This document shows, piece by piece, positions 1,331 to 64,000 of a stretch of 64,000 nt of DNA. The first letter of the stretch is position 1. Every line of letters begins with the position of its first letter. This stretch comes from Phormidesmis priestleyi BC1401 (GTDB taxonomy: Bacteria; Cyanobacteriota; Cyanobacteriia; Leptolyngbyales; Leptolyngbyaceae), in the NCBI RefSeq assembly GCF_001650195.1, contig NZ_LXYR01000015.1, forward strand, positions 1 through 64,000, given 5' to 3'. Made by a program: the position numbers and the translations under genes. Below the pieces are notes generated by a model. The model ran no database searches. It was not told the origin of the DNA and saw nothing but the letters and a program-made list of their open reading frames with translations.

Positions 1331-1384
1331 TTTATTGTTGGTTCTATTTATGGCTTGGTTCGGTGCATCCTCTGCCTTTAAAAT

Positions 1385-1410
1385 AAAAAACCCCAGCCGT
1401 GAAGCCGGGG
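1385..1410 (-). terminator. Intrinsic terminator for leftward transcripts
   Basis: On the minus strand CCCCGGC-ttcac-GGCTGGGG forms a 7-8 bp stem (one G·U) and is followed by TTTTTTATTT. It points left and could end transcripts coming from the cry-DASH side. Confidence 0.6.
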
Positions 1411-1509
1411 TGAATAATCAGGGTGCATCTACCATTCCTTTATTCCCAAAATGAGAGATGCTATCCGGGAAAACCTGCGAAAATCTTTTTTCACCTTGAA
1501 ATTGAAGCC

Positions 1510-34472: not shown

Positions 34473-34682
34473 CTGAAATCTTGCACCAGCCTCTTCGCTG
34501 CGATTCTGTCCCGCCCCGGACTAAAAGTCGGGGCTAGCCTTGCGAAGTCCCCTAAAGGGACTGGGAGAAGGTTTAAGGTATTCAGCCCCTTCAGGGGACT
34601 TCGCACTGTTAGACCGTGATTTTCAATCACGGGCGGGTGAATGCCAGCAACGAGGGAGTTTTAATCAGGTGCAAGATCTCAG
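34473..34682. repeat. Inverted-repeat element, long form (copy B, 210 bp)
   Basis: Ends CTGAAATCTTGCACC (34473-34487) and GGTGCAAGATCTCAG (34668-34682). The outer arms match copy A almost base for base. Inside the gtcccgcc site lies a ~120-bp core: hairpin CCCCGGACT-aaa-AGTCGGGG, AGTCCCC-taa-AGGGACT, and CCGTGATT-ttc-AATCACGG. The same core in opposite orientation is in copy C (62399-62611). It follows the YqeY-family stop codon directly. Confidence 0.88.
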
Positions 34683-57894: not shown

Positions 57895-58378
57895 ACCGAT
57901 TAACAAAAAACGCAACTTCGGGTTGTCTACAGCGAAAATGATTTAACCGTAAAAGACAAAGAGGCGTTGCTGAATAAAGGGTACAGATTTTCTTTCTCGA
58001 CCTCAAATTAGCCCTGCCAATTTTGGGGGATTTAGGGGGCGAAAGATTTTAGCAATGACCGATCAACCGACTTGTGTAGACACAGCAGCTCCATTTGGGA
58101 GAGGGCAAGCTTCTTGCTCATCCCCAAATTCAGCAGCGCCAAAACAACTTGGAAGACTACAAATTCTCAAACAAAAAGCCTCTGGACGTCTTGCCGTGTT
58201 TCGACTCCAGAGGCTCTTCGATTCGATTTGCTCCTCACACCTCCATACAATAGCAGCACCCGACCGAATTTGTCTATCTAAATCTGTGACAGATTTCAAA
58301 CTGGCTGAAGGGTTTAGCCCCAAATTTCCCAAGACCGCAACAATCGCCGAAGCCAAACTGACGCTCGATCGAGGGCAC
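57895..58378. other. Intergenic; only repeat-like sequence
   Basis: It includes ccaattttgggggatttagggggcg (about 58017-58042), a sequence type dispersed in cyanobacterial genomes. Two overlapping frames (58055-58384 plus, 58063-58380 minus) oppose each other and neither reads like a protein family. Confidence 0.45.
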
Positions 58379-58435: not shown

Positions 58436-60610
58436 CTATTTGATAAACAGCATCTCCTGATACTTGGGCAAGGGCCACAGATCGTCCGCCACGTCACCTT
58501 CGATCGCGTCCGCAAATTCGCGAACCTGATCCATTATTGGACGCAGCGTTTTGGCGCAGTACTGCATCTGTTCCTCGATCGTAGCGAAATCATGCTTGGC
58601 GATTGCGCTGTCCAATTTGCTAACGGCATCCATCATTCGCTTTGTCAACGCAGCAACCGTTTCTGCACTTTCTTGCTCAAACGCAATCCCGATCTGTTTC
58701 AGGTTACTAATACTGGTAGAAAGCTCTGACAAGTAGCGGAATGCGGCAGGATAAATCACCGTTTTCGCCAGACTGATCACGAGCTTGGCTTCCATCTCAA
58801 TCACCTGAACATATTGCTCTGCATACACATCAAAGCGGCTTTCCAGTTCAGAAGCAGACAGCACTCCCGTTTTTTCAAACAGTTCCTCGATATACTTCTC
58901 TTTCAAAATGGGCAACGCGTCTGCTGTGGTAGGCAGGTTCAACAACCCGCGTTCCTCAACTGCCATTTTGTGCCACGCCTCAGAGTAGCCATTGCCGCCA
59001 AAGACAACAGCGCTGTGATCCGTCATGACTTCTTTCAGCACGGCAAAGGCAGCATCTTCTAGCGTCAGCCCTTTTGCCAGTTCAGCTTCTAACTCATCTG
59101 CCATCCAGGTCAGCGAATCGGTCAGAATCGTGTTCATTGCAACCAGCGGACCGGAAACCGATTGGTTCGACCCAACTGCTCGAAACTCAAAGCGATTGCC
59201 CGTGAAGGCAAAAGGTGAAGTGCGGTTGCGATCGCCCGGATCTCTAGGAAACACTGGCAACGTTAGCACACCCAAACTCATCACACCCGCATGAGTAGAG
59301 CTTTTGACCTCTCCCTGCTTGATTTGCTCAAACACATCTTCGAGCTGGCTGCCCAGATAGACTGAAATGATCGCGGGAGGAGCTTCATTGGCACCGAGTC
59401 GATGATCGTTACTTGCAGTCGCAACCACGGCTCTCAGCAAAGGTCCATATTTGTGAACTCCGCGAATCACCGCTCCGCAAAACAGCAAAAATTGCAGGTT
59501 GGTATGAGGGTTATCACCCGGATCGAGCAGGTTGCCTTGAGTTGCATTGCCCACCGACCAGTTGACGTGCTTCCCAGACCCGTTGATGCCTGCAAATGGC
59601 TTTTCGTGTGATAGACAGACAAAGCCGTGTTTCTTAGCAGTGTTCTTGAGAATGGTCATCGTCATCTGCTGGTGGTCACTCGCCACGTTTGCTGCTTCAA
59701 AAAATGGAGCAAGCTCAAACTGACCGGGAGCCACTTCGTTATGTCGGGTTTTTGCTGGAATTCCCAGTCGATACATCCGCTCTTCTACATCTTGCATGAA
59801 GACCTGGACGCGCTCTGGAATTGCACCAAAATAGTGATCATCAAACTGTTGCCCTTTGACAGCAGGTCGCCCAAACAAAGTTCTGCCCGTCAATAAAATG
59901 TCCGGGCGGCTGTGGGCAAAATGAGCATCGATCAAGAAGTATTCTTGCTCTGTGCCACAGCTAGAGTTGACGGTCGCCACATCCGAATGTCCCAACAGTT
60001 TGAGCAGTCGGGTTGCCGCTTTGCTCATCGCTGCATTCGATCGCAGCAAGGGCATTTTCTTGTCTAGCGCTTCCCCGGTTCAAGAAATGAACATGGTGGG
60101 AATGCACAACGTCACCCCATTATCGGTTTCCATCACATAGGCGGGGCTAGTGACATCCCAAGCAGTGTAGCCCCGCGCTTCAAACGTAGAGCGAATGCCA
60201 CCATTGGGAAACGATGAACCATCCGGTTCGCCTTGCACCAGCACTTTGCCAGCAAATTCGGTCATCGCCGAGCCGTCACTTTGCACAGAGATAAACCCAT
60301 CGTGCTTTTCGGCGGTGATGTTGGTCATCGGGTAGAAAACGTGAGCGTAATACAATGCGCCCTTAGAAACCGCCCAGTCTTTCATCGCTGCGGCAACGGT
60401 TCCGGCAACAGACACATCCAGCTTTCCACCCGTCTGAATGGTGTTCTTGATCGACTTGAAGACATCTTTGGGTAAGCAAGCCTGCATTTTGCCCAGGGTA
60501 AATACGTCGGTTACCCAGAGTTCCTCCAGACGGCTGGGCGTTTTGGGGGGAAGCTTTTCGCGATCGGTGACTTGACAAATTGCCTAAAAGCGAAGTTCAT
60601 TACCACTCAT
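58436..60610 (-). pseudogene. glnN: Type III glutamine synthetase with two in-frame stop codons
   Basis: One uninterrupted frame of 724 codons, exactly the length of cyanobacterial GlnN, runs from ATG 60610 (MSGNELRF) to 58436. It contains TAG at codon 9 (60584-60586, expected Gln) and TGA at codon 177 (60080-60082, expected Trp in [17 protein letters not shown]). All else is conserved: [101 protein letters not shown]. The enzyme assimilates ammonium during nitrogen starvation. As given it would be cut into three pieces. An alternative is restart at M (60487) and at 60055. Confidence 0.9.
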
Positions 60611-60687: not shown

Positions 60688-61641
60688 TCAATAGACCTGT
60701 GGAACAAAGAACTGCTCGTTGCGCGGGGGTCGCACATAGTCATGAGCAGACTTGCGCGGCGGCAGTTCTAGCGGTTCTGGAGTCATATCCACATAGGGAA
60801 TCTTGCTGAGAAAGTGATGGATGCAGTTGAGACGAGCGCGTTTTTTGTCGTCGGCTTCAACGGTGAACCAGGGCGCTTCGGGGATGTTGGTGTAAGCAAA
60901 CATCGTGTCCTTGGCTTGGGAATATTCCACCCAGCGATCGCGCGACTCCAAATCCATCGGGCTAAGTTTCCAACGACGGGCAGGATCGATCGTGCGAGAT
61001 TGAAACCGCCGCTCTTGCTCCTCGTCGCTGACCGAAAACCAGTACTTCAGCAAAATGATGCCAGACCGCACCAGCATTCGCTCAAATTCGGGACAGGTTT
61101 GCATAAATTCCTGATACTGTTCGTCGGTGCAAAACCCCATCACATGCTCGACCCCGGCGCGGTTATACCAACTGCGATCGAAGCAGACAATTTCGCCTGC
61201 TGCTGGTAGATGAGGCACATAGCGCTGGAAGTACCATTCGGTTTTTTCACGATCGCTCGGTGTTCCCAACGCGACAACCCGACAGCCGCGTGGATTTAAC
61301 GGCTCAGTAATCCGCTTAATCGTGCCGCCTTTCCCTGCGGCATCACGACCTTCAAACGAGATCACAATTCGGGTGCCCGTATGTTTTGCCCAATACTGCA
61401 TTTTCACCAGCTCTACTTGCAGTCGGGCGAGTTCTTTCTCATAATCTTTACTAGAGAATTTAGACTTACTCTCCTGCTGAGAAGCGAGTAGGTAAGTCAT
61501 GGGTGGCGGAGTATAGTGGAGTTTGGTTTTTTTGTGTTTCTTACCTTTCTTCTTTTTTTTCTTTGTGGTCAGATTAGCGGATTCTGGAGTGAGGAATTCT
61601 GCGATCGTAGAGTTCTCTCCATTCATAAAGTCGGATTCCAT
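60688..61641 (-). CDS. ppk2: Polyphosphate kinase 2
   Basis: 317 aa from ATG 61641 (MESDFMNGENSTIAEF), with GGAGAAC at a proper distance; the frame is open to 61692. A charged Lys-rich N-terminus (KKKKKKGKKHKK) precedes the kinase core: Walker A ISFEGRDAAGKGGTIKRITE, lid and acidic residues in VCFDRSWYNRAGVEHVMGFC, then LSPMDLESRDRWVEYSQAKD. It phosphorylates nucleotides from polyphosphate or the reverse; class (I, II or III) is not decided. It neighbours glnN; both fit nutrient-stress use. Confidence 0.94.
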   Translation of the reverse strand: MESDFMNGENSTIAEFLTPESANLTTKKKKKKGKKHKKTKLHYTPPPMTYLLASQQESKSKFSSKDYEKELARLQVELVKMQYWAKHTGTRIVISFEGRDAAGKGGTIKRITEPLNPRGCRVVALGTPSDREKTEWYFQRYVPHLPAAGEIVCFDRSWYNRAGVEHVMGFCTDEQYQEFMQTCPEFERMLVRSGIILLKYWFSVSDEEQERRFQSRTIDPARRWKLSPMDLESRDRWVEYSQAKDTMFAYTNIPEAPWFTVEADDKKRARLNCIHHFLSKIPYVDMTPEPLELPPRKSAHDYVRPPRNEQFFVPQVY

Positions 61642-61692
61642 ACTTGTTCTCCAGTGACTGAAATGACCATGAGACAGACAACAGCAAACCAA

Positions 61693-62094: not shown

Positions 62095-63540
62095 ATGGAG
62101 TCGAGAGTTTTCTTTGTCGAAGATGATACTCGTAACATCGGCAGATTGTCGTGCATTGCTCTACTGACAGCTAGTTGCTATGCCACACTCTCCAAAGCTT
62201 ATCCTGAGGCGGGTGCGGGTAGTTCTTACTATTACGCCGAGGCAGCAATTATGGTCAACGAAGAACATAAGCATTTTCGGTTAGCTCGTCTGGCAAAGTT
62301 TGTCACAGGTTGGGCAGCGCACCTCTACTAATGGGTGTATCCCGGCATCATGATTAGCTTTATGGGAACGCTGGTCGCTTACGTTGGGTAACTGTTTAAG
62401 AGGATGTTTTAAAAGTAGTCGTTGATGGCATGACCCGCCCGTGATTGAAAATCACGGTCTAACGGTGCGAAGTCCACTAAAGGGACTGAAAGCCTAATGT
62501 CGTCTGGATTTAACCCGTTGAAACGAGTTTCGCACCGTTAGCCCCGACTTTCAGTCCGGGGCGGAGCGCGATCGTAGCGAAGAGACTTTCCATACTTTTC
62601 AACCATCCTCTGATCCTGGGTTTGCCTCAGATTGGTTCAGTAAAGTTTTAATCTGTTTCATTTTTGCTGGGCTAGTGGGCGGCATCGCAATGGTAGGTGT
62701 GACGGGATCGACACTCGTCAACATTGTCATTAAGATTATTCAAATCACTTCTCTGGTGTTCTTGTGGTTGTTGATGATTTTGTATCGATTGGGTCATCCC
62801 AACGTTACTTATAAACACACCAATGCATTTAGCGTTGTGATTCCTCACGATTTTCTGGGGTTAATTTATCAAGCTACGATCGCCATTCTTCTAGTCGTTG
62901 GTTTTGAATCTGCAACAGCAATGGCAGGAGAGGCAGTCAATCCTCGGCGTAATATTCCTAGAGGTGTGATTCTGTCACTGTTCATTCAAGCCTGTGTCTG
63001 CTACTTTTTTGAGTATTTTGCTGCAAACTTCTTCGTTGGCGATCAATATACTGCGATCGTGGACGGCAAGACTGTTACTGGATTTGCTGCCGCATTCTCG
63101 TCAGGTGCGCCGATTGGTGACATGGCGAAGATTTTGGGTGACACTCTATTGTTTGGCAACGGCTTTTTGTTGCAGATTACGATCGCCAGCACCTTGGCAC
63201 GTTTATGCTTTACGGCATTACCTGCGGGGTTATGCTAGTCGCAACGTTAAAGCATTTGCTAGACGAAGAGCGCAATCCCATCCAAACGATCGTCATTCCT
63301 ATATGAGGTCTAGGGGCGAATCTATTTATGGTTTGCGGCATCTTTTACTATAGACTGGCTGGAGCAGGAAGCGCCAAAATTAACTCAATGACTGCGATCG
63401 GGATTTTGATCGCTTTCTTTGTCGCCGGATTTGCTTATCTGATTGGCGATAGCTTGCTCAAAAATAAGCCTCTGTTTTTGCCTTCTGACTTGAGTCATCC
63501 TTTGCGCGATCGTGCAGGTGCTTCGAAGGAACGTAGATTT
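62095..63540 (+). pseudogene. APC-type amino-acid permease, multiply broken
   Basis: Fragments of one APC-superfamily transporter follow in order. First: LTASCYATLSKAYPEAGAGS, SYYYAEAAIMVNEEHKHFRL, AKFVTGWAAHLY, TAA (62329), WVYPGIMISFMGTLVAYVG, TAA (62389). The 213-bp element C interrupts at 62399-62611. Then GFASDWFSKVLICFIFAGLV to LLQITIASTLARL (to about 63195), a frame change near 63200, GITCGVMLVATLKHLLDEER, NPIQTIVIPI, TGA (63304), GLGANLFMVCGIFYY and SMTAIGILIAFFVAGFAYLI. Expected residues at the stops are Tyr, Gln and Trp. The N-terminal helices are also missing, so the gene is dead irrespective of base-calling errors. Confidence 0.88.
62399..62611. repeat. Inverted-repeat element, long form (copy C, 213 bp), inserted in permease
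   Basis: Ends AGAGGATGTTTTAAAAGTA (62399-62417) and the complement of AGAGGATGGTTGAAAAGTA (62593-62611), 17/19 matching. The outer arms match copies A and B in reverse orientation (gtcgttgatggcatgacccgcc; ggcggagcgcgatcgtagcgaagagact). The core holds CCGTGATT-gaa-AATCACGG, gtgcgaagtccactaaagggact and CCCCGACT-ttc-AGTCCGGGG hairpins. It interrupts the coding sequence of the permease. Confidence 0.85.
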
Positions 63541-63745: not shown

Positions 63746-64000
63746 ACGACAGAATCTTTACCCATCGCTAATCAGATCACAGCGATTGTCACTCAGACCA
63801 GCATTTTGCGCGTGTTTGACCCGATCGAGATGCATGACACGATTGAAACCCTTCAGCAATTGGGTCTAACGGCTCCCCACCTACATGATGACGGAGTTGC
63901 GGCGAGTGCTGACGCTCTCCAGCAAAATAGTCAGCCCAAAGATGAGATCGATCCTTTCAACGCTGGAGAACTCAAGCACAATCTTTCCAGTCAGAGAAGA
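63746..64000 (+). CDS. Unrecognised protein, runs off right edge
   Basis: An 85-codon open frame begins at ACG 63746 (T-TESLPIANQITAIVTQTSI) and continues LRVFDPIEMHDTIETLQQLG, LTAPHLHDDGVAAS, LKHNLSSQRR to the edge. The sequence is protein-like, with coherent amphipathic helices. There is no ATG/GTG/TTG at its beginning; ACG occupies the place where an ATG followed by TTES would be natural. It may thus be another damaged gene. Family unknown. Confidence 0.4.

Follow-up and report, generated by a model that had tools for sequence, protein, structure and literature searches.

The window analysed here, the whole 64,000-nucleotide stretch of DNA from Phormidesmis priestleyi BC1401, contains a frame on the minus strand (58436–60610) that raises the question of why a gene for type III glutamine synthetase (GSIII), glnN, should be kept at full length while being interrupted by two stop codons. 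Translation of the minus strand gave 724 codons and a final TAG, and the only internal stops were a TAG at codon 9 (60584–60586) and a TGA at codon 177 (60080–60082), with the frame otherwise unbroken, as a previous sequence-only reading of this DNA had claimed; against relatives of 724 residues we found no insertion, deletion or frameshift. The conceptual product matched the GSIII of PDB entry 3o6x over residues 5–724 (E-value 5.5e-189), and the domains PF12437, PF00120 and PF18318 are present on a relative with 92% identity to it; owing to the TAG at codon 9 and the TGA at codon 177, however, no uninterrupted frame here could encode the entire GSIII. Because codon 9 is CAG in the nearest relatives (L013, L039 and L017) and codon 177 is TGG in all relatives that we aligned, each stop lies one transition away from the expected codon, in agreement with what had been proposed from the sequence.

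We compared the product with 100 other GSIII proteins, six duplicate proteins and a remnant described below (L037) having been removed before counting; the 100 are not fully independent, since a few rows are the same record obtained through two collections (e.g., L006 and L055). Column 177 was W (TGG) in 100/100 of these proteins and column 9 was most often Q (Q 80, K 10, H 3, A 2, T 1, gap 4), and in neither column did any of the 100 have a stop, i.e., both stops are private to the window. Among 275 invariant columns only 177 was altered in the window copy, and as its 724 codons otherwise keep every invariant GSIII residue the frame is no chance ORF. The earlier description of the remainder as perfectly conserved goes too far, for the protein shares 92% identity with its nearest relative (that of G036; next is the MAG Aphanocapsa sp. 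GSE-SYN-MK-11-07L, L039, at 91%) and differs at six columns of at least 95% conservation besides the stop at 177. Seven of its residues were found in no other sequence, placing it at rank 22 of 101.

A search of 42 genomes of the family for GSIII matches at E-values of 1e-100 or less (the order-level search covers the same 42 genomes) identified a match in 27 and none in 15. At the level of the class, 62 of 156 sampled genomes had GSIII, and stops inside the match occurred only in the window genome and in G048; that 60 of the other 61 GSIII-bearing genomes had no internal stop is what one expects of a pseudogene with lesions of its own. The same scan showed the GSIII of G048 and of G071 to be divided between frames as well. 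In G004 we identified an older GSIII remnant (L037, G004:C1:2179-3021) that retains residues 441–724 only, at 60% identity and with five stops; this and the window copy are both instances of GSIII loss within one family, the window copy being far younger. A further candidate for a nonsense-bearing GSIII in the family, at G010:C22, was rejected: its single TGA is at position 692 of 692 of the aligned stretch, as would fit a frameshift close to the 3' end, and the lesion differs from that of the window. Separately, three glnN copies in Scytonema and Rhizonema MAGs (L075, L080 and L091) are without the first ~28 codons and have unrelated sequence upstream; their dS to window glnN (0.61–0.71) is under the 0.85 to L013 and their dN/dS is raised (0.14–0.18), and they are probably transferred and loosened copies.

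Most likely, the window glnN is a case of ordinary gene decay at an early stage, and we put at about 0.86 the probability that a dispensable second glutamine synthetase was inactivated here very recently, in a locus that was already decaying. The neighbourhood of the gene bears on this. Upstream of glnN is an intact ppk2 gene (polyphosphate kinase 2; 60688–61692, minus strand; TIGR03707 above cut-off); 77 bp separate its stop codon from the ATG of glnN. The dN/dS of window ppk2 against five of six relatives was 0.015–0.033 (dS was saturated for the sixth), and so this gene is still under selection; values between pairs of relatives were left unused, their N-terminus being poorly aligned. Upstream sequence of 1.8 kb or more was available for 67 genome_contigs loci; ppk2 was directly before glnN in 12 of them, and six of these 12 had an NtcA-type box. 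In the window the putative promoter upstream of ppk2-glnN, of the form GTA-N8-TAC-N22-TAATAT, reads GTAATCTTTGATAC followed by 22 bases and TAATAT (61938 to 61897, minus strand), and the layout is common to the window, L153, L039 and L152; we take GTA-N8-TAC to be the NtcA consensus. This motif is absent from the 300 bases directly before window glnN and was present at that place in just 10 of 100 copies. Judging by the gap of 77 bp and the conserved NtcA-type promoter, ppk2 and glnN may form one nitrogen-controlled operon, with window glnN likely to be under NtcA control; section 2.8 of PMC6316151 describes the glnN of Synechocystis as NtcA-regulated. We also note two RNA matches in the window, one to Cyano-1 just downstream of glnN (58170–58244, minus strand) and one to NsiR1 (nitrogen stress-induced RNA 1; 1382–1434, minus strand).

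Three relatives, G036 (L153), G001 (L152, L055) and Aphanocapsa (L039), have glnN behind ppk2 and, opposite, a divergently oriented amino-acid permease gene followed by a PII-family gene (L153:5211-5603 on the minus strand, G001:C54:166054-166389 and L039:1370-1753); a CBS-domain gene is located farther on in G036 and G001. The window permease is a pseudogene by comparison with G036 (62137–63528, plus strand), consisting of pieces ~77–82% identical to the G036 gene with the first ~50 codons unrecognisable, stops at 62329–62331 (TAA), 62389–62391 (TAA) and 63304–63306 (TGA), and a frameshifting deletion of ~229 bp at 63192. A MITE-like element of ~214 bp (62399–62612, plus strand) with 19-bp terminal inverted repeats is inserted at a single, exact position in the ancestral permease sequence; it has 64 matches in the genome, many of them partial, including two other full-length copies at 93–94%. 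A related copy of this repeat is found at 34488–34653 of the window, and the repeat occurs in dozens of other places in the window genome (G000). The dN/dS of the permease remnants was 0.071–0.098 to three relatives, versus 0.026–0.049 among intact copies. Of the CBS-domain gene a relic of ~30 residues remains (63781–63868, plus strand, recognised by comparison with relatives), and the stretch between it and the permease, including the PII-family gene, is deleted. This cluster PII-family gene, present at the locus in G001, G036 and L039, is absent from the whole window genome, whose two PII-family genes lie away from the glnN locus (G001 has three and G036 four). Since these neighbours are far more damaged than glnN, the locus appears to have been decaying before glnN was hit, an order that we infer from the amount of damage. 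The pairing of a PII-family gene with an amino-acid permease resembles that of GlnK with AmtB, although the transporter differs, and the PII-family, permease, ppk2 and glnN genes are perhaps a nitrogen-linked module. Among the papers listed for glnN with ppk2, none contained 'polyphosphate kinase 2'; the neighbourhood may still have been described before.

The age of the glnN lesion was approached by seeking relaxed selection in tree tips, dN and polarised changes, and none was found: the tip length in the protein tree was 0.046 for window glnN versus 0.041 for its intact sister L013, dN to L039 was 0.051 for both, and dN/dS to L039 was 0.028 for the window copy and 0.032 for L013 (0.049 between the two). 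The broken copy lacks the raised dN/dS of relaxed selection, a rise that is expected only for an old loss. The neutral expectation is 20–23 nonsynonymous changes for each nonsense change, so that, given the lack of excess amino-acid change, both stops must be much younger than the split, unless at least one of them is not genuine. Under plain drift, two nonsense changes with no excess of missense changes or indels would be somewhat unlikely, and this leaves room for base error or for selection for loss. On the window glnN branch we counted 25 GC-to-AT and 13 AT-to-GC changes, as against 12 and 13 on that of the sister, a lean that is compatible with recent drift or base damage, the counts being too few to decide; the polarised counts include only sites with agreeing outgroups, and the N/S figures from them (19/25 for the window, 13/18 for the sister) are not dN/dS. 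We also observed that glnN shares only 80% identity with its counterpart in G001, of the same genus, and 92% with that of G036, whereas ClpB is 91% identical to G001 and 84% to G036 (six ClpB neighbours are 77–91% identical to G001). From this discordance the glnN segment seems to have a history different from that of the core genome; to judge from the identities, it was probably transferred or replaced.

The best surviving competitor, to which we give a small but real chance, is that the draft, of 213 contigs, has a sequencing or assembly error at one stop or at both and that the gene of the living organism is intact. Two stops that each took one transition, in a gene not otherwise accelerated, and the GC-to-AT lean of its branch, are what such errors could look like; however, we identified no internal stop in 88 ABC_tran matches of the same genome, nor in seven window genes with orthologues in G001:C104 (77–91% identical), and the damage to the permease also counts against it because base errors do not make insertions and deletions.

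It is very improbable that glnN is functional through readthrough or suppression of both stops, and our tests for suppressor tRNAs and recoding lent no support to this option, which had already been ranked as the less likely one. While it could account for the lack of excess amino-acid change and for the retained NtcA-type promoter, and while further tRNA-Gln and tRNA-Trp genes are found in two large extra tRNA arrays of the genome, the cell would have to decode two different stop codons, the glnN stops are in no relative, and ARAGORN called none of the anticodons CTA, TCA and TTA among 83 tRNA matches (150 of 315 first-look candidates were scored). For a few array tRNAs uncalled by ARAGORN the anticodon loops were taken from a simple stem score; the top guess from this score, CTA at C33:46487, was discarded since ARAGORN calls GAG for the same gene, and the array tRNA gene at C33:44635 has no clear anticodon. 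Genome-wide recoding was rejected on the stop-free ABC_tran matches together with the tRNA anticodons; we found no cognate suppressor tRNA among the 83 matches, the glnN stops are not conserved in relatives, and in-frame stops did not recur in the other genes examined. Just as improbable is a version in which GSIII is made only by starvation-induced readthrough, the two stops being a translational switch on an NtcA-controlled gene, which near-cognate tRNA-Gln and tRNA-Trp from the extra arrays would help. The arrays themselves (L149, G000:C33:44635-47740, 33 genes; L150, G000:C31:38836-41122, 14 genes, by ARAGORN) have a partly common gene order, and PMC10272220 describes a long tRNA operon in Anabaena PCC 7120. 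Least probable of all is that fragments rebuild GSIII by restarts at M42 (~135 residues) and near codon 186 (539 residues), for although mechanical ORFs exist at 60080–60487 and 58436–60055, the second stop falls within the GSIII_N domain (residues 29–191 in the intact copy L153) and a clean split at that point occurs in no relative searched.

We thus favor very recent inactivation of glnN in a decaying locus, and its course might have been as follows. Ancestrally, glnN would have been the downstream gene of a ppk2-glnN operon, beside the divergent amino-acid permease and PII-family genes. The neighbours would have been lost first, deletions, the mobile-repeat insertion and stops wrecking the permease and removing the PII gene; the damage is observed, while the order is deduced. 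Later, two C-to-T type transitions, one per strand, would have made the TAG at codon 9 and the TGA at codon 177, leaving as glnN output under the standard code an 8-residue peptide or N-terminally truncated fragments only. GlnA would carry glutamine synthesis, making the loss of GSIII tolerable, and ppk2, which lies upstream of both stops, stays intact. Retention of the NtcA-type promoter and of ppk2 is a point against this course of events.

Window glnN is the sole GSIII of its genome, and the check for a second glutamine synthetase gene called for earlier turned up a normal, intact glnA elsewhere in it (TIGR00653, 646 bits versus a cut-off of 429). Two further glutamine synthetase-like proteins match TIGR03105, which despite its name is a model of 435 positions and not of the 724-residue GSIII. 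The loss of glnN would be tolerated because the type I enzyme GlnA carries glutamine synthesis, its sufficiency being drawn from the Synechocystis literature. The unaccelerated branch, the intact GlnA, the sporadic absence of glnN and the older decay of its neighbours all speak for the very recent loss that had been suggested from the sequence alone. We regard the locus as a snapshot of a cyanobacterium shedding a starvation-type glutamine synthetase, in which the transporter and PII-family gene went first and glnN next, with the presumed operon partner ppk2 kept. The order of loss in a PII-family/permease/PPK2/GSIII neighbourhood with a common NtcA-type promoter hints at a functional link, and the interest of the case, a staged loss of a nitrogen-linked gene neighbourhood, is modest.

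Compared with the characterized glnN genes of Synechocystis PCC 6803 and Synechococcus PCC 7942, the window gene is of the same family and of full length and likely shares their NtcA control; unlike them, it has two stops that prevent synthesis of the enzyme if the standard code applies. In section 2.8 of PMC6316151, GSIII is described as dispensable in Synechocystis and as missing from all sequenced Prochlorococcus strains, and the same source mentions a possible early GSIII loss in Synechococcus WH7803. The window case resembles this recurrent loss in cyanobacteria such as Prochlorococcus (PMC6316151) in that a dispensable second glutamine synthetase is shed and GlnA is kept, and differs from it in its early stage: glnN has just two point stops, the permease beside it is an older wreck and the PII gene is gone.
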